Made by a program: the position numbers and the translations under genes. The notes below the pieces were generated by a model that was not told where the DNA came from, searched no databases, and saw only the letters and a program-made list of their open reading frames with translations. From Oscillospiraceae bacterium (GTDB taxonomy: Bacteria; Bacillota; Clostridia; Oscillospirales; Oscillospiraceae), in NCBI GenBank assembly GCA_015067435.1, contig SVMM01000003.1, positions 124,001 through 188,000 of the forward strand: a stretch of 64,000 nt of DNA, in the 5' to 3' direction. Below are positions 43,796 to 59,920 of this stretch, piece after piece. Each line of letters opens with the position of its first letter. The first letter of the stretch is position 1.

Positions 43796-45379
43796 TTACG
43801 TTCCGCTTGCGCCGTAGTTCGAGAGCACACGCGCGGAGGGGTCGTTCACGTCGCAGCCCTCCCAGCTCTTGTTTGGCATCCAGAAGTCGACGATCATCTC
43901 CGCCTGTCCGGGATAGTATTTCTCAAACAGCTCGCGGTAGAGCAGGGACTCCTTCGTAAACGGCTGCGCGTGGGAATAGCGCGCGCGGCGGAGCTGAAAT
44001 TTCTCGTCGGTGTAATACTGCTCGGCATACGCCTTGAGGTCGTCCACCATCGAGTGGCCCACAGCATCGGAGAACGCCGCCTTCTCGCGCCAGAGAATGC
44101 TTTCGGGCAGGATGTGGTCCGCCTCGAAAGCGTGGCGCAGGAGGTACTTGCCCTTGTTGTAGGTGTTGAGCTTCTTCTCCGGATCGATCGCCATGACATA
44201 GCGCACGAAGTCGAGGTCGCCGAAGGGCACGCGCGCCTCCAATGAGTTGACGGAAATGCAGCGGTCGGCGCGCAGCACGTCGTACATGTGGAGCTCGCGG
44301 ATGCGCTTTTGCGCCTCCTTCTGGAACTCCTCGGCGCTCGGCGCGAAATCGGTGTATTTGTAGCCGAACAGCTCGTCGCTGATCTCGCCGGTCAGCAGCA
44401 CGCGGATGTCCGTCTGCTCATGGATCGCCTTGCAGACGAGGTACATGCCGATGGAGGCGCGGATGGTCGTGATGTCGAAAGTGCCGAGCAGCGCGACCAC
44501 CGGCTCCAGCGCCGCGAGGACGTCGTCCTTCGTGATGATGACCTCCGTGTGCTCGCTGTGGATAAAGTCCGCGACCTCGCGGGCGTATTTGAGGTCGATG
44601 GCGTCGATGTCCATGCCGATGGCGAAGGTGCGCACGGGCGTCTCGCTCTCCCGCGCGGCGATGGCGCACACGAGCGAGGAATCGAGACCGCCGGAGAGCA
44701 GGAAGCCCACCTTCGCGTCGGCGACAAGGCGCTTGCGCACGCCCGCGATCAGCTTGTCATGGATGCTGCGGCACACGGTCTCCAGATCGTCGTGACATAC
44801 CGCGGGGACGGCGGCGATGTCGTCGTAGCAGACGAACTCCCCGCCCTTCCAGTAGTGCCCCGGCGGGAAGGGCTTGACCTCGGCGCAGAGCCCGACGAGG
44901 TTCTTCGCCTCGCTCGCGAACAGGATCGCGCCCTTTTCGTCGTAGCCGTAGAACAGCGGGCGGATGCCGATGGGGTCGCGCGCGGCGACGAACTCCTTCG
45001 TCCGCCCGTCGTAGAGGATCAGCGCAAATTCCGCGTCGAGCATCGGGAACATGTCGACGCCGTGCTCGAACCAGAGCGGGAGCAGGATCTCGCAGTCGGA
45101 CTCGCTGACAAAGCTGTAGCCCTTGTCCTGAAGCGCCTGCCGCATCGCGGCGAAGCCGTAGACCTCGCCGTTGCAGACCACGTAGCTGCCGTCGCGCTCG
45201 AAGGGCTGCATCCCCTCGGGGTGCAAACCCATGATGGCGAGGCGGTGGAAGCCCAGCAGCCCGCCGCCCGTCTGCACGACGGCGCTCGCGTCGGGACCGC
45301 GGGACACGGTTTTCTCAAAGCCCTCGCGGAACGCGTCCATCGGCGCATCCGCGTCGCAATAACCCATGATTGAACACAT
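43796..45379 (-). CDS. asnB: Asparagine synthetase (glutamine-hydrolysing)
   Basis: This 527-residue enzyme keeps the nucleophile Cys2 after Met removal (M-C-S-I-M-G). Glutaminase loops R-G-P-D-A-S, H-R-L-A-I and C-N-G-E-V-Y follow, then the synthetase pyrophosphate loop L-L-S-G-G-L-D-S-S-L and L-L-T-G-E-I-S-D-E-L-F-G. The start is ATG 45379 with AAGGAG upstream, although the frame is open to 45448. A hairpin with a GGAA loop sits just before the ribosome site. It lies downstream of glnN on the same strand (122-base gap), consistent with an ammonia-assimilation unit using the glutamine made by GlnN. Confidence 0.92.
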   Translation of the reverse strand: MCSIMGYCDADAPMDAFREGFEKTVSRGPDASAVVQTGGGLLGFHRLAIMGLHPEGMQPFERDGSYVVCNGEVYGFAAMRQALQDKGYSFVSESDCEILLPLWFEHGVDMFPMLDAEFALILYDGRTKEFVAARDPIGIRPLFYGYDEKGAILFASEAKNLVGLCAEVKPFPPGHYWKGGEFVCYDDIAAVPAVCHDDLETVCRSIHDKLIAGVRKRLVADAKVGFLLSGGLDSSLVCAIAARESETPVRTFAIGMDIDAIDLKYAREVADFIHSEHTEVIITKDDVLAALEPVVALLGTFDITTIRASIGMYLVCKAIHEQTDIRVLLTGEISDELFGYKYTDFAPSAEEFQKEAQKRIRELHMYDVLRADRCISVNSLEARVPFGDLDFVRYVMAIDPEKKLNTYNKGKYLLRHAFEADHILPESILWREKAAFSDAVGHSMVDDLKAYAEQYYTDEKFQLRRARYSHAQPFTKESLLYRELFEKYYPGQAEMIVDFWMPNKSWEGCDVNDPSARVLSNYGASGT

Positions 45380-45396
45380 AGTGCTTTCTCCTTCCT

Positions 45397-45420
45397 GCTC
45401 CGTGCCTTCCGGCACGGAGC
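45397..45420 (-). promoter_or_regulatory. Hairpin just ahead of the asnB ribosome site
   Basis: A 10-bp perfect stem (45397-45406 and 45411-45420) with a GGAA tetraloop on the minus strand, 18 bases upstream of the start codon. It could gate ribosome entry. Confidence 0.45.
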
Positions 45421-45476
45421 GCAGCCATATTTCGCGGTTGCCGCGCAAGCGGCGAGCGAAACGGCGATTCCTTCAG

Positions 45477-45515
45477 CGTAGGACAGCTGCCGTTAGGCGG
45501 CTATCTTACGCTAAA
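45477..45515 (-). promoter_or_regulatory. Hairpin over the glnN stop codon
   Basis: An imperfect stem with outer AGCGTA/TACGCT and inner GCC/GGC arms spans the end of glnN. There is no U-tract after it, so partial termination or mRNA-end protection between glnN and asnB is the likely role. Confidence 0.4.
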
Positions 45516-47597
45516 CAGCAATTCCCCGTAGGTCGGGAACGGCCAGTAATCGCTTGCCGTGACCGTCTCCGCCTCGTCGCACACCGCGCGCAGCTCCGCC
45601 ATGCGCGGCAGCACCACGTCGCGGATGGTGAACGCCTCGTTGACCGACTCATCCGTCTCGCGCACGGCGAGCATGGCGCGCTCCAGCGCCGCGGTCTTGT
45701 CCGCGATGCAGTCCGTGAGGCCGGAAAGCCGCTCCACCAGCTTCGTTTCGTATGTGCAGCCGAGCGTCGGCGCAAGCGCCTTCTTCTTTCCGGCGTTTTC
45801 GGCGGTCTCGGCGGTGAAGGCGGTCACCGCGGGCAGGATCTCCCGCCGCGCCATCTCCGTCATCGTCTCCGCCTCGATCATGATTGCCTTGGAGTAGTTC
45901 TCCAGCATGATCTCATAGCGGGAGTGCAGCTCGTTTTCGGTGAAGACGCCATGGCGCGTCAGCAGCTCGACGTTCTTCTTCTTGATGAGTGACGGGATGC
46001 AGTCCGGCGTCGTGCGCAACTCGGAAAGGCCGCGTTTTTCTGTCGCCTCGCGGATCCACGCCTCGTCGTAACCGTTGCCGTTGAAGATGATGCGCTTGTG
46101 CGCCGTGATCGTCTTCTGGATGAGCGTGTGGAGCGCGTCGTTGAAGTTGTTCGCGCCCTCCAGCTCGTCGGCGTACTGGCGCAGCGATTCGGCGACCGCC
46201 GTGTTGAGGATGGTGTTCACCGTCGCGATGGACTGGGACGAACCGACCATGCGGAACTCGAACTTGTTGCCCGTGAAGGCGAAGGGCGAGGTGCGGTTGC
46301 GGTCGGTCATGTCGCGGGCAAAACGCGGCAGCGCGTGGACACCGAGCTTTACGACGGTCTTCTCCGCCGCGCTGTACGGCGTGTCGGTCTCCAGCGATTC
46401 CAGAATCGCCGTCAGCTCGTCGCCGAGGAAGACGGACACGACGGCGGGCGGCGCCTCGTTGCCGCCGAGGCGGTGGTCGTTGCCCGCCGTGGCGACGGCG
46501 GTGCGCAGCAGCTCCTGATACTCATCCACCGCCTGCACCACCGCCACGAGGAACAGCAGGAACTGCGCGTTCTCGTGCGGCGTCTCGCCGGGGGAAAGCA
46601 GGTTGACGCCCGTGTCCGTGGCGATCGACCAGTTGTTGTGCTTGCCGGAGCCGTTGACGCCCGCAAACGGCTTCTCGTGCAGCAGGCACACCAGATCGTG
46701 CTTCGCCGCGACCTTCTGCATGACCTCCATGGTCAACTGGTTCTGGTCGGTGGCGAGGTTCGTCGTGGTGTAGATCGGCGCCAGCTCGTGCTGGGACGGC
46801 GCGACCTCGTTGTGCTCGGTCTTGGCGTAGATGCCCAGCTTCCACAGCTCCTCGTTCAGCTCGTCCATGTACGCCTGCACGCGCGGCTTGATGGCGCCGA
46901 AGTAGTGGTCGTCCAGCTCCTGCCCCTTGGGCGGCTTCGCGCCGAAGAGCGTGCGCCCGGTGTAGATCAGGTCGCGCCGCTTCTCATAGACGCTTTTGTC
47001 GATGAGGAAATACTCCTGCTCGGGGCCGACGGAGGTGGTGACGTGGCTGACGCTCTCGTTGCCGAACAGCCGCAGCACGCGCATCGCCTGCTTGTTGATT
47101 GCCTCCATCGAGCGCAGCAGCGGCGTTTTCTGGTCCAGCGCCTCGCCGCCGTAGGCGCAGAACGCCGTGGGGATGCACAGTGTCTTGCCCTTGAGAAAGG
47201 CGTAGGACGTCGGGTCCCACGCGGTGTAGCCGCGCGCCTCGAAGGTCGCGCGCAGGCCGCCGGAGGGGAAGCTCGACGCGTCCGGCTCGCCCTGGATCAG
47301 CTCCTTGCCGGAGAATTCGAGGATGACGCCGCCGTCCGGCGCGGGAGAAATGAAGCTGTCGTGCTTCTCGGCGGTGATGTCCGTCATGGGCTGGAACCAG
47401 TGGGTGAAGTGCGTCGCGCCCTTCTCCACCGCCCAGTCGCGCATGGCGTCCGCCACCGCGTCGGCGACTTCGGGATCGAGCCGCTCGCCCCGGCGGATCG
47501 TCTGCTTGAGGGAGTGGTACACCTTTGCGGAGAGGCGCGCCTTCATCACACGCTCATCAAAGACCATGCTGCCGAAAAAGTCGGGGATATTCGCCAT
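45501..47597 (-). CDS. glnN: Glutamine synthetase type III
   Basis: This 698-residue enzyme makes glutamine from glutamate, ammonia and ATP. Length and landmarks fit GSIII: N-terminal [51 protein letters not shown] and [17 protein letters not shown] start at M-A-N-I-P (ATG 47597, AAAGGG upstream), matching family N-termini. The frame extends upstream through the leader, but that includes the terminator hairpin. A promoter and an intrinsic terminator in the leader point to attenuation control. Confidence 0.93.
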
Positions 47598-47623
47598 ATC
47601 AAACACCCTTTCCGAATGAAAAT

Positions 47624-47664
47624 AAAAAGACGCCTCAGGGAGCGCAAAAGCTCTCTGAGACGTC
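47624..47664 (-). terminator. Leader terminator (attenuator) of glnN
   Basis: On the minus strand a 15-position stem with one mismatch (47650-47664 with 47629-47643), 6-base loop, followed directly by TTTTTATTTT. It lies between the glnN promoter and coding start, with no other gene upstream on this strand. It should therefore stop transcription before glnN unless antiterminated. Confidence 0.8.
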
Positions 47665-47681
47665 ATTGTCCCGATGTGTGC

Positions 47682-47710
47682 AGTATAAAACGACGTTTCC
47701 ATAATGTCAA
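47682..47710 (-). promoter_or_regulatory. Promoter of glnN
   Basis: On the minus strand TTGACA (47705-47710), 17 bases, TATACT (47682-47687). The predicted start is near 47675, only about ten bases before the attenuator stem. Confidence 0.85.
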
Positions 47711-47766
47711 CCGTCAGTTTGTATTATTTTTTTGAAATATCGCCATAAAATTTTGTGAACTTGCGA

Positions 47767-47796
47767 TTGACACGCAAACGCCTTTCGTTGTATGCT
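47767..47796 (+). promoter_or_regulatory. Promoter of the type I glutamine synthetase gene
   Basis: TTGACA (47767-47772), an 18-base spacer, TATGCT (47791-47796), divergent from the glnN promoter. No terminator lies in this short leader. Confidence 0.65.
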
Positions 47797-47836
47797 TTTC
47801 TGGTATTTGAAATCACTTTATTAAGGAGCGATGGAT

Positions 47837-49048
47837 ATGAAGTACACGGCACAGGAAATCGCGCAGTACGTCGAGCAGGAGGATGTGAAGTTCATTCGTC
47901 TGGCGTTCTGCGACGTGTTCGGGCGGCAGAAAAACCTCGCCATCCTGCCCTCCGAGCTGGAGCGCGCCTTTTCCTTCGGCATCCCCTTCGACGCCTCCGC
48001 CATCCCCGGCTTCGGCGGTGAGGTACGCTCCGACCTGATCCTGCACCCCGACCCATCCACGCTCTCCAGCCTGCCGTGGCACCCCGAAAACGGGCGCGTC
48101 GTGCGGATGTTCTGCTCGATCACGCACCCGGACGGCTCGCCGTTCGACGGGGACTGCCGCGCACTGCTGCAGCGCGCCGTGGACGCCGCGGCGCAAAAGG
48201 GCGTCTCCTTCGCGTTTGGCGCGGAGATGGAGTTCTACCTCTTCAAGACCGACGAGGAGGGCGAGCCGACGCGCATCCCCTACGACCGCGCGCACTACAT
48301 GGACATCGCGCCGGAGGACAAGGGCGAGATCGTCCGCCGCGAGATCTGCCTGACGCTCGCGCAGATGGGCATTCAGCCGGAGTGCGCCCACCACGAGGAG
48401 GGGCCGGGGCAGAACGAGATCGACTTCCGCTATTCCGATCCCCTCTCGTCGGCGGACAACGCCATCACCTTCCGCTCCGTGGTCAAAACCATCGTCGCGC
48501 GCAACGGCCTCGCTGCCGATTTCTCGCCCAAGCCCCTGCCGGACGAGGCGGGCAACGGCATGCACATCAACTTCTCCGTCCGCTCGGCGGACCGGCGCGA
48601 CCTCCTGCCCCACGCCATCGCCGGTATCATGGACAAGGTGCGCGAGCTGACGCTGTTCCTGAACCCGACGGAGGATTCCTACCGGCGGCTCGGCAGCAAC
48701 AAGGCGCCGGGCTACATCACGTGGTCGAGCGAGAACCGCTCGCAGCTCATCCGCATCCCCGCCGCGCCGCAGGAGCTCTACCGCGCGGAGCTGCGCTCCC
48801 CCGATCCGACGGCGAACCCATATCTCGCGTTCGCGCTGCTGATCCACGCGGGGCTGGACGGCATCGAGCGTGAGCTGGAGCTGCCCGAGAGCGCGGACGT
48901 CAATCTCTTCACCGCCGACGAGGAGACCCTTCGCCGCTATCAGCGCATCCCCGCCTCGCTGCACGAGGCGGCGGCCGCCGCGAAGAGCAGCGATTTTCTC
49001 AGCACGCGCGTGCCCGCGCTGATCCTTTCCGCATACGCCGACCGCTGA
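47837..49048 (+). CDS. glnA: Glutamine synthetase type I-like
   Basis: This 403-residue enzyme is somewhat shorter than the usual 440-470. It shows F-C-D-V-F-G-R, F-G-A-E-M-E-F-Y-L-F (metal Glu), H-H-E-E-G-P-G-Q-N-E-I, G-N-G-M-H-I-N-F-S, the ATP/ammonia-side N-K-A-P-G-Y-I-T-W-S-S-E-N-R-S and R-A-E-L-R-S-P-D-P-T-A-N-P-Y-L. There is no adenylylation-type Tyr loop that I can identify. ATG 47837 has AAGGAG 8 bases upstream; ATG 47831 is too close to it. The ANTAR regulator follows in the same direction after 41 bases, the gene pair known as glnA-nitR in solvent-forming clostridia. Confidence 0.88.
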   Translation: MKYTAQEIAQYVEQEDVKFIRLAFCDVFGRQKNLAILPSELERAFSFGIPFDASAIPGFGGEVRSDLILHPDPSTLSSLPWHPENGRVVRMFCSITHPDGSPFDGDCRALLQRAVDAAAQKGVSFAFGAEMEFYLFKTDEEGEPTRIPYDRAHYMDIAPEDKGEIVRREICLTLAQMGIQPECAHHEEGPGQNEIDFRYSDPLSSADNAITFRSVVKTIVARNGLAADFSPKPLPDEAGNGMHINFSVRSADRRDLLPHAIAGIMDKVRELTLFLNPTEDSYRRLGSNKAPGYITWSSENRSQLIRIPAAPQELYRAELRSPDPTANPYLAFALLIHAGLDGIERELELPESADVNLFTADEETLRRYQRIPASLHEAAAAAKSSDFLSTRVPALILSAYADR

Positions 49049-49089
49049 TACCCACTGCCCCAAGATCGTCAGAAAGGAGGGAGCGGGCG

Positions 49090-49671
49090 ATGGTATTTCA
49101 GGAGCGGACATACGCCGTTCTGATCGTCTCGGTCAGCGCAAAATTTGACGAAGCGGTCCGCGCGCTCCTTCCACCCACGGATTACTGGCCGGTGGTCACG
49201 GCGCGCAGCGCCGGAGAGGCGCGGCGGCGGATGCTGGAGGAGACGTTCGACCTCGTGCTGATCCAGACGCCGCTGCGCGACGAGTTCGGCAGCAGGCTGG
49301 CGGCGGACATCTGCGAAAGCTCCGGCGCGGGCGTGCTGCTGCTGGTGAAAAAGGAGCTCTACGACGACGTGTACGCGAAGGTGATGGAACAGGGCGTCAT
49401 GGTGCTGCCCGTGCCCGCCTCCGCGCAGACGGTGGCGCAGACGCTGCGCATCCTCTGCGCCGCGCGCGAGAGATTGCGCCGCATGGAGGAAAAGCAGGCG
49501 AGCGTGGAGGAGAAGATCGAGGAGATCCGCCTCGTCAACCGCGCGAAATGGCTGCTGATCGAGCAGCTGCAAATGACGGAGACGGACGCGCACCGCTACA
49601 TCGAAAAGCAGTCGATGGATCTGCGCATTTCGCGCCGCGCCGTTGCGGAAAACATCATCAACACCTATTGA
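49090..49671 (+). CDS. ANTAR-domain antiterminator (NitR-like)
   Basis: This 193-residue protein has a receiver-like N-terminal domain (1-125) that lacks a clear phospho-acceptor (L-V-L-I-Q-T-P-L where the Asp would be). A coiled coil follows (R-L-R-R-M-E-E-K-Q-A-S-V-E-E-K), then an ANTAR domain (about 140-193) with L-V-N-R-A-K-W-L-L-I, M-T-E-T-D-A-H-R-Y-I-E-K and M-D-L-R-I-S-R-R-A-V-A-E-N-I-I. ANTAR proteins bind paired hexaloop hairpins in nascent RNA and prevent termination. Its place beside two glutamine synthetase genes suggests control of nitrogen assimilation; the glnN attenuator is an obvious candidate, but its loop does not match the usual ANTAR consensus. Confidence 0.88.
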   Translation: MVFQERTYAVLIVSVSAKFDEAVRALLPPTDYWPVVTARSAGEARRRMLEETFDLVLIQTPLRDEFGSRLAADICESSGAGVLLLVKKELYDDVYAKVMEQGVMVLPVPASAQTVAQTLRILCAARERLRRMEEKQASVEEKIEEIRLVNRAKWLLIEQLQMTETDAHRYIEKQSMDLRISRRAVAENIINTY

Positions 49672-49696
49672 CAAACACCATATCTTGTAGTATCTT
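49668..49696 (+). promoter_or_regulatory. Promoter of pyrG
   Basis: TTGACA (49668-49673), 17 bases, TATCTT (49691-49696). The -35 overlaps the stop codon of the ANTAR gene. Confidence 0.7.
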
Positions 49697-49710
49697 TAAT
49701 CTGTTGGACA

Positions 49711-49755
49711 AAGGTGTTCATTTGAGGGGCAAGTGCCCCCTCGGATGAACACCTT
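49711..49755 (+). promoter_or_regulatory. Long nested hairpin in the pyrG leader
   Basis: An outer 11-bp stem (49711-49721 and 49745-49755) encloses an inner GC stem (49724-49731 and 49734-49742, one bulge). It begins within about 10 bases of the predicted transcription start and ends about 15 bases before the ribosome site. There is no U-tract downstream. Confidence 0.6.
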
Positions 49756-49779
49756 CATCATTGTACGGAGGGATGGAAC

Positions 49780-51390
49780 ATGACCAAATACATCTTTGTG
49801 ACCGGCGGCGTGGTGTCGGGGCTGGGCAAGGGCATTACGGCGGCGTCGCTGGGACGTCTTCTGAAGGCGCGGGGACTGAAGGTCGCGGCGCAGAAGCTCG
49901 ACCCCTATATCAACGTCGACCCCGGCACCATGAGCCCCTACCAGCACGGCGAGGTCTATGTCACCGAAGACGGCGCGGAGACCGACCTCGACCTCGGCCA
50001 CTACGAGCGTTTCATCGACGAGGATCTGAACAAATACTCCAACCTCACCACCGGCAAGGTCTACTGGAACGTGCTTCACCGCGAGCGCCGCGGCGAATAC
50101 CTTGGCTCCACGGTGCAGGTCATCCCGCACATCACCGACGAGATCAAGGAATTCATCTACCGCGTCGGCTCCCACTCCGATGCGGACGTGGTCATCACCG
50201 AGATCGGCGGCACCATCGGCGACATTGAGAGCCGTCCCTTCATTGAGGCGGTGCGGCAGGTGTCGCTGGAGGTCGGGCGCGAGAACAGTCTCTTCATCCA
50301 CGTGACGCTCGTGCCGTTCCTCCGCGGCTCGAACGAGCACAAGTCCAAGCCGACGCAGCACTCGGTCAACGAGCTGCAGGGCATGGGCATCCATCCGGAC
50401 ATCATCGTGCTGCGCAGCGACGAACCGATCGAGGACGAGGGCATCTTCCGCAAGATCGCGCTGTTCTGCAACGTGCAGCCCGACTGCGTCATCGAAAACC
50501 GCACGGTGCCCTGCCTGTACGAAGCGCCGCTCATGCTGGAGGAGGCGGACTTTTCCGGCGTCGTGTGCCGCAAGCTCGGTCTGGACGCGCCGAAGCCGGA
50601 GCTGACGGAGTGGCGCGATATGGTGGAGCGCATGAAGCGCCCGACGAAAAACGTGACCGTCGCGCTGGTCGGCAAGTACACCCAGCTCCACGACGCCTAC
50701 CTCTCCGTGATGGAGTCCCTGCACCACGCGGGCAGCGCGCTGGGCGCGCAGGTCGACATCCGCTGGATCGACTCAGAGCAGCTGACGGCGGAGAACGTGG
50801 GCGCGACGCTCGCGGCGGCAGACGGCATTCTGGTGCCGGGCGGCTTCGGCGACCGCGGCGTCGAGGGCATGATCCTCGCCGCGCAGTACGCGCGCGAGCA
50901 CAAGAAGCCGTATCTGGGCCTGTGCCTCGGCATGCAGATCGCAGTCATCGAGTTTGCGCGGCACGTTGCAGGCCTTCCGGACGCCAACTCCGGCGAGTTC
51001 GACGAGCTGTGCCGCCACAAGGTGATCGACTTCATGCCCGGGCAGAGCCGGGAGATCGACAAGGGCGGCACGCTGCGGCTCGGCAGCTATCCCTGCGTCG
51101 TCGCGCCTGGCACGGTCATGGCGCGCTGCTACGGCGCGGAGCGCATCACCGAGCGCCACCGCCACCGCTACGAGTTCAACAACGACTACCGCGACGCGCT
51201 CACGTCTGCGGGGCTGACGCTCAGCGGCCTGTCGCCGGACGGCACGCTCGTCGAGACGGTGGAGCTCTCCGGTCTGCCGTTCTATGTGGGCGTGCAGTAT
51301 CACCCGGAGTTCAAGAGCCGCCCCAACCGCCCGCATCCGCTGTTCGTCGGGCTGATCGAGGCGGCGCTTGCCAAGCCGGAAAAATCCTGA
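49780..51390 (+). CDS. pyrG: CTP synthase
   Basis: This 536-residue enzyme aminates UTP to CTP with glutamine and ATP. The N-terminal synthetase opens [18 protein letters not shown] and has [13 protein letters not shown]. The C-terminal class I glutaminase has [10 protein letters not shown], nucleophile loop L-G-L-C-L-G-M-Q and the catalytic V-Q-Y-H-P-E-F. Length is normal. ACGGAGGG precedes ATG. It is the third glutamine-dependent enzyme in this 8-kb stretch. Confidence 0.97.
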
Positions 51391-53732: not shown

Positions 53733-53756
53733 GCCGCCCTCCGCGGGGAGGGCGGC
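53733..53756 (-). terminator. Terminator of the twin-protein operon
   Basis: A 10-bp GC-rich stem (53733-53742 and 53747-53756) followed on the minus strand by a short, weak T-rich stretch. Confidence 0.6.
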
Positions 53757-53765
53757 ATTCGTTTC

Positions 53766-55058
53766 TCATTCGAACGCGTCAAGCTGGAAGCGGTTGAACA
53801 GCACGCGCCCCTTGCGGAGGTATTCCGCCGTCATCACGTCGAATTTGACGTTGTAGAAGCCGGGGATCGGGTTCATCCGCAAATCGTTCGAGCCGAACAC
53901 AAGCTCAAGAATATAGCCGTACGCGTCGTCGTATTCGTAATCATCCCGTACCTTGATCCGCGCGTCCTTGAACGGGGACGGCCGGTATCCGTCGACGATG
54001 ATATCGTATACCTTTTTTCCAATCAGCTTTTTCACCTCCGACGTCACGGTGCAGTTGCACCAGACCGTGATTTTCTCGCCGACCGGCAACGGGTTTTTGC
54101 TGTTGACGGCAACGCGGAAGATCAGCTCGGTGGGCTCGACGTCGACCTCGTAATACTCCATCCGCATGTCGCGGATGCGCGGGTCGCTGCCCAGCGAGAT
54201 GTAACGCTCAATATCGGAAACGTTGTCGAAATAATCACGTGTATCGGGGTTTTTCGGCGTTTTCGCGCCCGTCGGTACGGATGCCGGCGCGGGCGCGGGT
54301 TCCGGTTCCGGTTTCGGCATTGGCTCGGGTTCCGGCGTCAGTTCGGGCTCGGGTGCAGACGCAGGCGCGGGCTCGGGTTCCGGTTCCGCCATGCTGTATC
54401 CGGACGGGATGTACGCGTCCTCGTTCTCGTCGTTTGTCTCCTCGAAGAAGGGATAGGCCTCCATCCGCGCGTCTCTGGACAGCTTCGCGCCGCCGATGTC
54501 CAGCCCAACGATGTAGGTGCCGTCCTTGATCCACGTCAGCTCGTCCAGCGGGACGCTCATCGCCGCGTCAAAGCGCCAGACGCCATCCTCAAATTCCATC
54601 CCGTGGTGTTGGTTGACCGTCATCGGCACCAGACGGATGCTGGTATCGACCTCCCGGTAGTCCTCAAGGCCGTAGCCGCTCCCGACGCCGAACTTCCTTC
54701 TTCTTTCCCAGTACTCGTCCTGCGAAACGTCGTCGTGCAGGAAGCGGAGCAGGGTCAGTTGCACCAGCACATCTTCGAACTTCTCCGGCGGTCTCCTGCG
54801 GTCTGAGCACTTGAGATACACGCGCATGAAATGTCCCTCGCCGTCGGGGCGCACCTGACGATCCATCGTCGCGTCCCGCACCTCAAGGCCCTCGACGTCC
54901 GGGTTTGCGCCGAGGGTTTGGACAAACTGGCTGTAGGGAACGAAGATGCTCGACGGCTCCCACGGGTCTTTCGCGCTCTGCGGCGCGGGCGCGGGAGCAG
55001 GCTGCGGCGTGGGTTTCGGCGGCGGATTCCCCGTTTCGTTCTGAAAGAATAAGCCCAT
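53766..55058 (-). CDS. Unrecognised protein with Pro/Glu linkers and shared N-terminal octapeptide
   Basis: This 430-residue protein starts M-G-L-F-F-Q-N-E, exactly as its upstream neighbour does. A Pro/Ala/Gln linker (8-30) leads to a globular domain of about 190 residues (F-V-P-Y-S-Q-F-V, W-R-F-D-A-A-M-S-V-P-L, Y-I-V-G-L-D-I-G-G-A-K-L). A Pro-Glu repeat linker follows at about 220-265, then a second beta-rich domain (D-P-R-I-R-D-M-R-M-E-Y-Y-E-V-D to the end). There is no signal peptide or membrane helix, so it is cytoplasmic. I do not recognise either domain. Last gene of the four-gene operon, 21 bases after its neighbour; GGGAGGAGATGGT precedes ATG. Confidence 0.6.
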   Translation of the reverse strand: MGLFFQNETGNPPPKPTPQPAPAPAPQSAKDPWEPSSIFVPYSQFVQTLGANPDVEGLEVRDATMDRQVRPDGEGHFMRVYLKCSDRRRPPEKFEDVLVQLTLLRFLHDDVSQDEYWERRRKFGVGSGYGLEDYREVDTSIRLVPMTVNQHHGMEFEDGVWRFDAAMSVPLDELTWIKDGTYIVGLDIGGAKLSRDARMEAYPFFEETNDENEDAYIPSGYSMAEPEPEPAPASAPEPELTPEPEPMPKPEPEPAPAPASVPTGAKTPKNPDTRDYFDNVSDIERYISLGSDPRIRDMRMEYYEVDVEPTELIFRVAVNSKNPLPVGEKITVWCNCTVTSEVKKLIGKKVYDIIVDGYRPSPFKDARIKVRDDYEYDDAYGYILELVFGSNDLRMNPIPGFYNVKFDVMTAEYLRKGRVLFNRFQLDAFE

Positions 55059-55079
55059 ACCATCTCCTCCCTTGCGGCG

Positions 55080-55646
55080 TCAGACCTTGAACTCGTCAAC
55101 GCAGGCGAACGGCGCCTTGAGCGCGTCGCCGGTGATTGAGACGCTCAGGCGGTGCGTGCCGCGCTTGATGTTCCCGTTGATCCCGTCGGAGGCGCCGGAA
55201 TACTCCAGACTGAACTCGATCTCGTACGTCCCGTCCTCCAGACGCTTGGCCTTGGGCTTTCCGCTGCCGTCCGATCTGTGGACCACGGAGAGCTTGCGCG
55301 GCTTGGGCCCGTTCGTGCGCAGGACGGTCGACTCATTGTTGAACAGGCCGATGTGCGTGATCTCGACGTCGCAGTCCAGCGTGATGTGGGCGGGCGGCAG
55401 CACGTCGGCAAGCAGGATCAGATGGAAGAAGACCCCGTTCTGGATCACCCCGTCGACCCACAGCTTTTTGATGGCAAGCGAGCCCTCCGACACCTGCGGC
55501 TTCGCCGCCTGCGGCGCGGCCTGCTGCGTCGCGGGCGCGCTTGCGCTCTTCGGCGCGGTCTGCGGCGCATTCGCGCCCGGGGCGGTTGGTTTCGGCGTAC
55601 TCTGCGGCGCGGGAGACGCGGGTTCGTTTTGAAAGAATAAGCCCAT
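55080..55646 (-). CDS. Unrecognised protein with shared N-terminal octapeptide
   Basis: This 188-residue protein has the same M-G-L-F-F-Q-N-E start, an Ala/Pro/Gln linker to about residue 55, and one beta-rich domain (L-A-I-K-K-L-W-V-D-G-V-I, I-T-L-D-C-D-V-E-I-T, Y-E-I-E-F-S-L-E-Y-S-G). It resembles the C-terminal domain of the next gene in general character (predicted extended strands), but I cannot show homology. ATG 55646 has GGGGGAGG upstream; the frame is open to 55799 only because it runs through the broken YbjQ-type gene. Probably cytoplasmic. Function unknown. Confidence 0.6.
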   Translation of the reverse strand: MGLFFQNEPASPAPQSTPKPTAPGANAPQTAPKSASAPATQQAAPQAAKPQVSEGSLAIKKLWVDGVIQNGVFFHLILLADVLPPAHITLDCDVEITHIGLFNNESTVLRTNGPKPRKLSVVHRSDGSGKPKAKRLEDGTYEIEFSLEYSGASDGINGNIKRGTHRLSVSITGDALKAPFACVDEFKV

Positions 55647-55663
55647 GTCGTTTCCTCCCCCTT

Positions 55664-55951
55664 TTATTCCACCACCACGGCGGTGCCCATCAGGACGTAG
55701 TAGCCCTTTTTCGACCATCCGCCGCAGATATTGGTCAATCCCGTCGTCTGCGTCAGCCCGATCGCGCCGTTGTAGCCAATTTCCTGCAGAGAGCGGCAAA
55801 GGGAGTTCGCCGCCTTTTCTATGGCGGAAGTAACCACAGCCTCGCTGTTCACATTTATGTTATCGGTAATTTAATCGCCCACGCCCCAGACAGGGCCGAT
55901 CGTCCGGGTGATCCTGCGCCCCACGATGCTGTCCGTTGTGGAAAGATACAT
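55664..55951 (-). pseudogene. YbjQ-type (heavy-metal-binding domain) gene interrupted by in-frame TAA
   Basis: Reading from ATG 55951 (GAGGAAGGGG upstream), 26 codons give M-Y-L-S-T-T-D-S-I-V-G-R-R-I-T, the start of the YbjQ/DUF74 family, up to W-G-V-G-D. A TAA follows at 55871-55873. The same frame continues I-T-D-N-I-N-V-N and on to a family-like end G-T-A-V-V-V-E at 55664. The whole would be a 95-residue YbjQ-like protein with one nonsense codon. A GTG at 55852 could restart the second part (62 residues) but has no ribosome site. It is either a fresh pseudogene or a base error. It lies 15 bases after the SLH protein and 17 before the twin proteins. Confidence 0.7.
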
Positions 55952-55966
55952 GATTTTACCCCTTCC

Positions 55967-58900
55967 TCACTTTTTCTCGCGCACGAGGTAATAGTAGCCC
56001 GCCGGATCGTCGTACTGGAGATACATGTCGTCGATCCAGTCCGACTCGATGATCGTCAGGCCGTTGCCGAAATTCTGAAAAGTCAGGCCGTTGTAGCTGT
56101 CCGCGGCGTCGCGGTCGGAATAGTTCGACGCCCACGCGTAGGCTGTGCCAAGCAGAAAATCCTGTGCCTCGTAGCTGCTCTGCCGCGCGCCGCCCGCCAT
56201 CACGTAGAGCTGGTAGGAGAAGCCGTCGTCGCTGTCGCTGCTTTCGATGTAGAGCACGGCGCGCCCGTCGTCGCGGACATACTTGCCGGAGGTAAAGTAT
56301 CTGCGCCCGTAGCCCTCGCCCTCGGCGGTCCAGCTCCAGTCCTTCGGCGTAAAGCCGGTGACGTCGTTGTCGTCGGCGGTCAACAGGCCGCTGCCCTGCG
56401 GCGGCGTGGTCGGCGTCGTCGGTGTCGTCGGGGTCGTCGGTGTGGTTGGAGTGGTCGGGGTTGTCGGCGTCGTCGACTGGATGACGCCGCCGCTGTAGCC
56501 GCTCTTCTCACCGACGACGCTCTCGAACATGCGCAGCATCGTGGCGACCGCCTGCTCCGTCGTGAACGTGCCCGCCGGCATGAAGTTGTTGTTCTGATCG
56601 CCGCCCATGACGCGCGCGCCGCTGTACGGCGAGGTCACGGAGCTTATTTTGTTGATGTAGACCTGCGCCCAGTTGTTCGGCGCGTCGTTGAAGTGCTTCG
56701 CGCCGGACTCGCTTGTCAGCTTGCCGAGCAGCTCCGCCATCGTGACGAGCATCTTCGCCGCCTGCTCGCGCGTGATCGTGTTCTCCGGGCGGAACGAACC
56801 GTCCTCAAAACCGTTCACGATGCCCGTGCCGTAGGCAAAGGCAACCGCGGGGTCGCTGTACTGGCTGTCAAACGCGTTTCCGGGCTTTCTGGCATACTGC
56901 GCCATTTCCTCGTCGGTCATGCCCGTCGACGCCTTGACGGTGTTGTAGACAAGCTGGGCGAACTCGCGGCGCGTGATGTTGCCCGTCAGCTTGCCCATCA
57001 GCGCGTCGGGGATGATGTTCATGTTGTCCGCGAGCGCCAGCTCTTCCTCCGCCCACGAGCTGTAGCGTGCGCCGGAGCGTCTGCGGTGGAAGGTTTCGGC
57101 CGTGTCGCCGCTGTTGCGGCGGCTGCTGACGATCTGCGCGGAGTTGCCGTCCGCTTTCTGCGTGGCATTGTTCGCGATCTGCCGCGTGTCGGCGGTCGGC
57201 TGCTGGGGCGTCGCGGTCTGCGCCGTGCCGCCGTCGGCGGTCGCGGTGCCCTTTGCGATCTCCTGCCCGTCGGAGGAGAGCGTGGTGCTGTTGCCGCTTG
57301 ACGTGATATCCACGCCCTTCGAGGTATCGACGTTCTCGAAGCCCACGCTGTCGGTCGTACCGGAGACGGTGATATCCGACGTGCCGCTGTCGGTCGTGAC
57401 CTTCGCGCCGTCCGCGGCCGGGGTGATTGTGATCTCGCCCGCGCCCGTTTCGACCGTCGTGCCAAAGAGGTCGCCCTTCATCTTGTTCGAGGCGACGGCG
57501 AGCGTGCCCTCGGTGCCGTCGGTCCTTGCGGTGACGGAACCGTCGGGATTCATCGTCATTTCGTTCGCGCCGTCGGTGATGAGCGCGGTGGTGCCGGCGG
57601 TCTCCGCGCTGGCGTAGGTGCCGCCGATACGGCGCACGCGGATACTCTCGCCGCCCTGCACCGTGACATAGATCACGGTCTCGTCGCTGCCGACCGTCTT
57701 CTCCGCCACAACGGGAAGGCTGCCCGCTACCGTGTCGCCCGTGACGGTCGAGCTTTTGTCGCCGACGATGACCTCCGCGCCGCCGTCCGTGGTGACGACC
57801 ACCTTCGTCGCGGGAACGGCGGGATAGCTCAGCGCGGCGTTGTAACTATCCGCCGCCTTTTCGGTCGGCTTGACGAAGATGCTGGCGGAATAGCGTGCAA
57901 ACGAGGCGTCCCCGTCCGGAGTAATGTAGAGATACTGCGTCACTTCGGGATCGTTCGGGTCATAGACGCTCACCTTATAGTCGTGTCCCGTATCCTCCAC
58001 CTTGAAGGCGAGCACCGCGTGGTTGTATCTGACCTTTTCCGTCCCCTCCTCCCTCGTATATCTGAAGCCGACCACGACGGGGCTTTTCGGGTCGTTTTGC
58101 AGACGCTCGACCAGCTCGAGAGCGCTGGTTCTGCTCGGGGGATTGCCACCGCTCAGGTTGGCGTTCCGAATGCGCGTGAAATTGCTGTTGACCTGATAGA
58201 ACGCGATGTAATGCGCGAGCGTCTGATTGTCCGCGGGCTTAGCGAGGCTGTACGCGTCCGCCGCCCCGCCGACCTGATTCAGGCCGATCTTCTCCTCAAA
58301 GAGCAGGCCGCTCATGATGGACATGCCGCGGCAGTCTCCCCCCCATTCTTCGCTCAGCATGAGGTTGATTGCAGCGATCTGGTTGGCGTCGCGCCCGCTT
58401 ATCAGCGCGTCGTACGACGCCTCGTCGAGCAGGAAGCCGTCCGTGCCGTCCGCGAATTCCGCGCCGCGGAAGATCTTCGGGCGCTGGGGGCGCGGACCCG
58501 TCTCGAAGAAGAACTCATACTCGTTGTCAAAGGAGAAATTGTCGCGCCCCATGGTGTATTCCTTCTCCTGCGGCTGCGCGGGCACGCCGTCGACAGCCTT
58601 AAAGGTAAACCCACAGGGGAGGTACATGGGAATGCCGCCGGTTTCGCTTGCGTATCCGTGCATCCTCGTCGTATATCCCTTGCTGCTGTCGCTGTACTGC
58701 GCGATCCAGAGCTCATAGGGATGGACAAAGACGCCGGTGTTCGTCATGTCGAAGATGACGGACTCCGCCCCGGAGCCGTTGACAAGACCCCATTTGACGC
58801 CGCCTTTCAGATAGCTGTCATAGGCGACCTCTTTGGGAAGACTGGGATCGCCGTACGGAACGTCCACGTACGCTATGTCATAGGTCACGCGGCCGGACAT

Positions 58901-59185
58901 ATTGTTTACGATTGCCTGAAACTGCGGTGATTTCATGTCCTCCTCCGAGGCGTACCGGTCAAATTGCGGCGTCTCCAGACGCTTGAAATCAAGCGTCGCC
59001 TTTCCGGTCGTGAGATTCAGGGTGAGGTCCAGCCGGCAAAGGTGGGTCTTGATCGTTAACTGATAGCCCAATCTGACCTCTGCGCTCAGATAGATCACGT
59101 CGTCCGCCGCCCGCGCGCGCGGGGGCAGAAAGCCAAATGCCATCACAAGGCAAAGGAACAGCGCGAGAAAACGTGTCTTTTTCAT
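55967..59185 (-). CDS. Large secreted SLH-domain protein with papain-like cysteine peptidase motif
   Basis: This 1072-residue protein has a signal peptide (1-26, ending A-R-A). The N-terminal half (about 27-450) contains G-G-D-C-R-G-M-S (candidate nucleophile Cys), later R-Y-N-H-A-V-L-A-F (His) and V-Y-D-P-N-D-P-E (Asp/Asn), the order seen in papain-like peptidases. A Thr/Gly-rich middle (470-680) looks like repetitive beta structure. SLH-type repeats follow at about 710-905 (I-T-R-R-E-F-A-Q-L-V-Y, F-R-P-E-N-T-I-T-R-E-Q-A-A-K-M, M-P-A-G-T-F-T-T-E-Q-A). A (Thr-Thr-Pro)n linker and a C-terminal domain of about 140 residues finish it. It is exported and wall-attached. Peptidase activity is inferred from motif order only. 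Confidence 0.75.
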   Translation of the reverse strand: MKKTRFLALFLCLVMAFGFLPPRARAADDVIYLSAEVRLGYQLTIKTHLCRLDLTLNLTTGKATLDFKRLETPQFDRYASEEDMKSPQFQAIVNNMSGRVTYDIAYVDVPYGDPSLPKEVAYDSYLKGGVKWGLVNGSGAESVIFDMTNTGVFVHPYELWIAQYSDSSKGYTTRMHGYASETGGIPMYLPCGFTFKAVDGVPAQPQEKEYTMGRDNFSFDNEYEFFFETGPRPQRPKIFRGAEFADGTDGFLLDEASYDALISGRDANQIAAINLMLSEEWGGDCRGMSIMSGLLFEEKIGLNQVGGAADAYSLAKPADNQTLAHYIAFYQVNSNFTRIRNANLSGGNPPSRTSALELVERLQNDPKSPVVVGFRYTREEGTEKVRYNHAVLAFKVEDTGHDYKVSVYDPNDPEVTQYLYITPDGDASFARYSASIFVKPTEKAADSYNAALSYPAVPATKVVVTTDGGAEVIVGDKSSTVTGDTVAGSLPVVAEKTVGSDETVIYVTVQGGESIRVRRIGGTYASAETAGTTALITDGANEMTMNPDGSVTARTDGTEGTLAVASNKMKGDLFGTTVETGAGEITITPAADGAKVTTDSGTSDITVSGTTDSVGFENVDTSKGVDITSSGNSTTLSSDGQEIAKGTATADGGTAQTATPQQPTADTRQIANNATQKADGNSAQIVSSRRNSGDTAETFHRRRSGARYSSWAEEELALADNMNIIPDALMGKLTGNITRREFAQLVYNTVKASTGMTDEEMAQYARKPGNAFDSQYSDPAVAFAYGTGIVNGFEDGSFRPENTITREQAAKMLVTMAELLGKLTSESGAKHFNDAPNNWAQVYINKISSVTSPYSGARVMGGDQNNNFMPAGTFTTEQAVATMLRMFESVVGEKSGYSGGVIQSTTPTTPTTPTTPTTPTTPTTPTTPPQGSGLLTADDNDVTGFTPKDWSWTAEGEGYGRRYFTSGKYVRDDGRAVLYIESSDSDDGFSYQLYVMAGGARQSSYEAQDFLLGTAYAWASNYSDRDAADSYNGLTFQNFGNGLTIIESDWIDDMYLQYDDPAGYYYLVREKK
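56405..56474. repeat. 9-bp tandem repeat coding for (Thr-Thr-Pro)n
   Basis: About seven to eight near-identical 9-bp units of the GGYGTCGTC type on the plus strand encode a rigid linker after the SLH domains. Copy number is likely variable. Confidence 0.7.
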
Positions 59186-59291
59186 GATGCGGTCTCCCTT
59201 CAGCGGTAAGAATCGGGCGATGATAGAATCATTATAGCCGAAAAAATATATTTGTATAGATTCCGGAGCACATAATTATTTTTCTCTCCCG
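59186..59291. other. Divergent regulatory interval
   Basis: On the minus strand a TATAAT (59231-59236) in GGCTATAAT context is the likely -10 of the SLH protein operon. No good -35 exists, so an activator or alternative sigma factor may be needed. The remaining bases are AT-rich with no other feature I can support. Confidence 0.4.
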
Positions 59292-59362: not shown

Positions 59363-59920
59363 ATGGAGGATCAAGCGATCATCGAACTGTATTTTGCCCG
59401 CAGCGAGGACGCCGTCGGCGAGACCGACCGCAAATACGGCGCGTTCTGCCGCCGCGTCGCATGCAATATTCTCAGCGTACGCGAGGATGCGGAGGAGTGC
59501 GTCAACGACACCTATCACGCCGCGTGGAACGCGATCCCGCCGGAGCGCCCCGCAAGCCTGCGGGCGTATCTCGGCGCGATCACGCGCAACCTGTCCGTCG
59601 CGCGCTGGCGCACGGAGCACGCGCAGAAGCGCTTCGCGGGGATGGAAACGCTGCTCAGCGAGCTGGACGAGTGCGTCCCCGCCCGCGAGGGCACGGAGGC
59701 GGACTTTGCGCGCGGCGAGCTCACGGAGGCAATCGCGGCGTGGCTGCGCGGTCTCGCGCCGGACGACCGCGCGCTCTTTGTGCGGCGCTACTGGTACGGC
59801 GACGCGGTCAAGGCGCTGGCGAAGGAGTGCGGCGTCGGCGAAAACCAGATGGCGCAGCGGATGCGAAGGCTCCGCAGAGGGCTGAGGGCGGCATTGGAGG
59901 AAGGAGGTTTTTCCGTATGA
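59363..59920 (+). CDS. ECF-type RNA polymerase sigma factor
   Basis: This 185-residue sigma factor has region 2 at about 10-85 (D-A-E-E-C-V-N-D-T-Y-H-A-A-W-N-A-I-P, then L-G-A-I-T-R-N-L-S). A short linker leads to region 4 (about 125-180) with L-A-P-D-D-R-A-L-F-V-R-R-Y-W and helix-turn-helix A-K-E-C-G-V-G-E-N-Q-M-A-Q-R-M. GGAGG lies 6 bases ahead of ATG. The stop overlaps the partner gene (ATGA). Its activity should be controlled by that membrane protein; its regulon may include itself or the divergent SLH operon. Confidence 0.92.
   Translation: MEDQAIIELYFARSEDAVGETDRKYGAFCRRVACNILSVREDAEECVNDTYHAAWNAIPPERPASLRAYLGAITRNLSVARWRTEHAQKRFAGMETLLSELDECVPAREGTEADFARGELTEAIAAWLRGLAPDDRALFVRRYWYGDAVKALAKECGVGENQMAQRMRRLRRGLRAALEEGGFSV

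Follow-up and report, generated by a model that had tools for sequence, protein, structure and literature searches.

Papain-like proteases that are transcriptionally coupled to small cytoplasmic partners are known from the staphopain/staphostatin, SpeB/Spi and Bacteroides Btp/Bti pairs, as described in the part of the literature that treats them together (PMC3462683, in excerpt). In addition, an inhibitory action on proteases inside the cell has been ascribed to IPI, a protein with an immunoglobulin (Ig) fold whose homologues include proteins joined to SLH domains; the paper itself questions this role (PMC3901451). A comparable layout is found on the minus strand of the stretch analysed here, called the window in the following (64,000 nucleotides of an Oscillospiraceae bacterium, contig SVMM01000003.1, positions 124,001 to 188,000). 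Here the gene of an SLH protein with a papain-like domain, a YbjQ-like frame (Y) and the genes of two tagged proteins (F1 and F2) follow each other in the same orientation with gaps of 15, 17 and 21 bases, Y standing between the peptidase-type gene and the partner genes. An earlier note on this DNA had reported the four genes and their spacing correctly. Its statement that the arrangement matches no known system was too strong, since the layout is that of the pairs named above, as far as the excerpt of PMC3462683 describes them. The operon itself was not found in searches of the open-licence literature. We tentatively regard it as one copy of a recombining cassette in which surface cysteine peptidases are encoded together with cytoplasmic partners that act like staphostatin or Spi, a possibility to which we give somewhat less than an even chance. 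Inhibition or chaperoning in the cytoplasm is favoured because the protease-partner operon plan has these precedents and because of the report on the Ig-fold inhibitor IPI.

The Cys, His and Asp-x-Asn positions of the peptidase domain are kept, in papain order, in all 14 aligned rows. The papain-like motifs seen by the earlier note hold, and so, by inspection, does its pairing of a surface protein with cytoplasmic ones. The alignment comprises four copies of the own genome and ten from nine other genomes, leaving out L032, which the motif search had missed, and the broken copy on contig C31. Relatives of the domain were detected in 11 of 250 family genomes, the own genome included, with a profile built from the four own copies. 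Pfam recognised SLH alone in the window protein and no peptidase family, and the domain has neither a known peptidase family in Pfam nor a sequence match in the PDB; one of its relatives gave a match to the viral C62 family below the cut-off. The term papain-like therefore rests on the residue order and on the motifs of such enzymes. The signal-peptide-like start of the window protein shares 81–89 % identity with the copies SLH-A, SLH-B and SLH-C.

Both partner proteins begin with MGLFFQNE followed by Pro/Ala linkers, as noted earlier, and by inspection neither has a visible signal peptide. No credible match to F1 or F2 was obtained in Pfam, NCBIfam, PHROGs, PADLOC and PDB sequences, in agreement with their earlier classification as unrecognised; the few matches were weak or lay on low-complexity linkers. 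Trypan_PARP, TonB and similar matches of F2 were rejected as low-complexity because they are located on the Pro/Glu linker. In F2 two frames are fused which stand apart in the congeneric species CAMVAV01. The structure models of F1 and F2 are beta sandwiches of low confidence, the strands of F1 being taken from a model with a pLDDT of 55.5. With this model IPI (PDB 3isy) ranked tied first in VIA-align and second in Foldseek, in both cases below the level that stands out. F1 (window copy and C20 copy) did not match the BsuPI/IPI Pfam profile at E values up to 1. Staphostatins, with their lipocalin-like fold, and chagasins are absent among the structure matches listed for the F1 model, which excludes nothing.

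The back-translated octapeptide has four occurrences in the genome (3.34 Mb), all of them opening an F gene of this family, and its reversed control pattern has none, which places the tag beyond chance. The exact back-translated form is present in one of 99 genomes searched, namely the own one, where a relaxed pattern with at most one mismatch matches the four family members and two other places. The equivalents in CAMVAV01 are MGLMFQNG and MGLLIENG. The Leu3 codon is TTA in all four own tags and in CAMVAV01 F2, and TTG in CAMVAV01 F1; of the 349 Leu codons counted across seven genes of the window, three are TTA, two of them in the tags of F1 and F2. Beyond the ribosome-binding site the upstream sequences of F1 and F2 are dissimilar by eye. 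The tags thus seem to share a common 5' end by descent, the pattern being kept with conservative changes in CAMVAV01. A search of the open-licence literature for the octapeptide found nothing.

As to export, activity and binding, we infer the following course. The large protein would leave the cell by Sec and be anchored in the wall via its SLH region, so that the peptidase domain would act outside the cell. The F proteins, and the Z proteins at sister loci (see below), would remain in the cytoplasm. There their Ig-like beta domains would bind the peptidase domain while it is nascent or when it is mis-retained, and would inhibit it or help it to fold, much as staphostatins and Spi do. The short constant tag on its flexible linker, which the partners have in common, may serve in docking, in the start of translation or in both. 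At the window locus Y would be dispensable, if its stop codon is real. If all this is true, the principle of the co-encoded cytoplasmic inhibitor, known from a few secreted papain-like proteases, extends to SLH peptidases that are anchored to the wall of uncultured Clostridia and whose partner proteins belong to no described family; furthermore, the multi-copy mosaic layout would offer natural matched and mismatched pairs for studying how inhibitor specificity evolves.

Uniqueness of the gene order to this genome, which the earlier note had named as a refutation of its reading, is rejected. The order recurs in a second cluster of the own genome (SLH-Y-Y-F1-F2) and in CAMVAV01 (Y-F1-F2-F3). In CAMVAV01 the cassette is followed 3' by a response regulator, two solute-binding-like proteins and a histidine-kinase-like protein (L009:2106-7057, names by eye), and this stretch matches C20 about 45107-51240 at about 79–81 % nucleotide identity, which makes the two loci orthologous. 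A remnant of F3 is present 3' of the C20 F2. Other loci of the family encode Z proteins (L008:12000-13553, L020:6790-9039, L021:2639-4925), composed of a constant header of 72 residues, a His/Cys motif and variable beta-type domains. They have no Pfam match, and the His/Cys motif presumably resembles a zinc-binding site. A third cluster, at a contig start (L021:1-4925), contains a broken SLH gene without SLH repeats, followed by two intact Z genes. The broken copy SLH-D, on C31, has lost its SLH region, and a Z remnant of 92 residues is found in G001 C27. Between SLH-C and the Z-type genes lie a membrane-protein-like and a lipoprotein-like frame (L020:4731-5799, C20 40730-41798).

The SLH region is 78–99 % identical among six copies (SLH-D left out), and residues 28–205 fall to 11–27 % in many pairs. 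The peptidase domains of G27a and G87 (L066:4483-7617, L067:2373-5549) are 100 % identical and their N-terminal regions 24 %, from which it follows that modules of the SLH proteins have been swapped. The cassette is a lineage-restricted, duplicating and recombining multi-copy mosaic family that has been little described and that the earlier note could not see. The SLH proteins vary in their N-terminal part and are constant in the C-terminal one, the small genes downstream replace each other, and some copies are broken or stand in tandem. Together with recombination, this would also suit a polymorphic toxin/immunity system, in which the SLH protein exposes rivals to a toxic peptidase and F or Z proteins confer immunity. 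However, the variable part precedes the peptidase instead of forming the C-terminal tip, and the type of downstream gene does not go with it: the window copy and SLH-B are 45 % identical in this region, yet one is accompanied by F and the other by Z genes. Neither a PADLOC match (five proteins tried) nor a toxin family in the Pfam scans was obtained. We hold this explanation to be quite unlikely. The same PADLOC result led to the rejection of a defence system. An origin from a phage or another mobile element was rejected as well: no F1 relative was found among 30 pattern matches in viral contigs, the PHROGs matches were weak and of linker type only (E 0.0089 and 0.02), and no clear composition step was found.

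In the peptidase-domain tree five Z-labelled copies form one clade (support 83/91) together with G15, to which no neighbour type is assigned, and both copies followed by Y/F genes fall outside. This is a weak comparison: seven copies are informative, several of the copies are tandem neighbours, SLH-D is broken, two other frames separate SLH-C from its first Z-type frame, and the Z gene behind G27a is a remnant. The lack of a Z gene directly behind SLH-C also lowers the probability of a partnership of peptidase and F or Z proteins slightly, as does the width of the range of F2N selection estimates. Against it, too, ten peptidase-SLH regions from ten other genomes are without a relative of Y, F or Z, as far as single-sequence tblastn (E up to 0.1, SLH-protein matches only) detects them in regions of 4–15 kb, some at a contig end. 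These regions argue against a strict need for partners.

Peptidases without such a module nearby are also expected if Y, F and Z assemble with each other, as a cytoplasmic scaffold or stress module with a YbjQ-like core and tagged beta-domain clients, and share with the surface protein just the operon and the induction signal. This alternative further explains why two different constant headers, the MGLFFQNE type and the 72-residue Z header, front the same F2N/F3-type domains, as a docking label would. It appears less probable to us, though worth considering, because the assembled window copy of the proposed core is interrupted and because both genomes with partner genes hold several copies of the SLH-peptidase family (partial searches). 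A further, unlikely reading combines a dedicated docking header, MGL-Phi-Phi-[QE]-N-[EG] or the Z header with the His/Cys motif behind it, in front of shuffled, interchangeable Ig-like domains with surface peptidases matched to them, whose N-termini are swapped by recombination. If true, it would represent a new polymorphic family of surface proteases and partners.

The earlier note treated the YbjQ-type gene as intact. As assembled, the operon consists of three intact genes, since the Y frame is interrupted by an in-frame TAA; a single assembly cannot tell a mutation from an assembly error. With codon 27 read as Q, the frame matches YbjQ_1 (PF01906) at E 0.0095 with 17.0 bits, the cut-off being 23, and the intact paralogue Y1 passes with 28.0 bits. 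A PDB sequence search with the Y profile gave no credible match. In the alignment of YbjQ-like proteins the nonsense codon sits at the edge of an indel-rich stretch. The ratio of nonsynonymous to synonymous substitution rates (dN/dS) is 0.53–0.79 among Y copies. This value, the nonsense codon and the remnants and broken copies of F3, Z and SLH-D would fit F and Y genes that are decaying passengers of slight function today, by-products of a duplication hot spot near the genes of surface proteins. This is quite unlikely in view of F2N and F3, whose frames are complete at the window locus and whose dN/dS values are 0.29 (against C20) and 0.20 (against CAMVAV01).

The operon faces an ECF sigma gene (59363-59920), as the earlier note had said. 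Its -10 box was likewise found again; the denial of a -35 box went too far, because a -35-like hexamer stands 16 nucleotides before it. Promoter-like sites in the region number 3 with 1.6 expected in shuffles, a weak excess that may be due to chance, and the 5 terminator-like sites (5.6 expected, scored on the plus strand only) are insignificant on their own. With regard to a possible control by the facing ECF sigma factor, the upstream regions of four SLH copies, aligned with MAFFT, revealed no site clearly shared by all, and homologues of the sigma gene at G002, G008 and G063 stand beside different genes within the stretches read.

Table 1 Features of the operon and its flanks (positions in the window)
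Feature	Position	Strand	Remarks
SLH-anchored papain-like protein, 1072 residues	55967..59185	-	SLH PF00395, E 1.7e-10, 41.1 bits, one stretch scored
Signal-peptide-like start, residues 1-27 (...ARAADD)	59105..59185	-	by inspection
Variable N-terminal region, residues 28-205	58571..59104	-	15-45 % identity to SLH-A, B, C
Papain-like domain	57836..58570	-	residues about 206-450; Cys285, His389, Asp409-x-Asn411
Cys285	58331-58333	-	in papain-like domain
His389	58019-58021	-	in papain-like domain
Asp409 of Asp409-x-Asn411	57959-57961	-	in papain-like domain
SLH region, residues 691-900	56486..57115	-	78-88 % identity to SLH-A, B, C
C-terminal domain behind Thr-Pro linker, residues 930-1072	55970..56398	-	no family
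YbjQ-like gene (Y), broken at codon 27	55664..55951	-	one TAA inside (55871-55873)
F1, 188 residues	55080..55646	-	tag MGLFFQNE (1-8), Pro/Ala linker (9-54), beta domain (about 55-188)
F2, 430 residues	53766..55058	-	tag (1-8), linker, beta domain F2N (about 31-205)
F2, C-terminal part	within 53766..55058	-	acidic Pro/Glu linker (about 206-268), beta domain F3 (about 269-430)
Putative promoter TATACA-16-TATAAT	59231..59258	-	5' of SLH gene; 10/12 consensus matches
Candidate terminator, GC-rich 10-pair hairpin	53733..53756	unassigned (.)	directly 3' of F2

Among the members of the cassette, Y can be compared with a described family: Y1 belongs to YbjQ_1 by the cut-off, and besides the interrupted window copy Y2 and the CAMVAV01 copy score below it. 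SLH proteins from other genera of the family possess the same Cys, His and Asp-x-Asn motifs, and SLH repeats were present in four of five scanned. Unlike the window, the stretches read around them contain no relative of Y, F or Z. As far as its model can be trusted, F1 resembles the Ig-like beta fold of the Bacillus subtilis IPI (BsuPI). The proposed partnership is closest to staphopain/staphostatin, SpeB/Spi and the Bacteroides C10 protease/Bfi-Bti sets, where a papain-like protease gene stands beside the genes of small cytoplasmic partners. According to the same excerpt, staphostatin and the Bacteroides partners are rich in beta sheets, as the F proteins may be, and some cases have several protease/partner copies, as here (PMC3462683). 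In contrast to these pairs, the protease-like domain of the window is embedded in an SLH protein of 1072 residues and a YbjQ-like frame lies in between, and the partners, in which no sequence relation to the known ones was seen, begin with a tag and combine Pro-rich linkers with either one beta domain or two.
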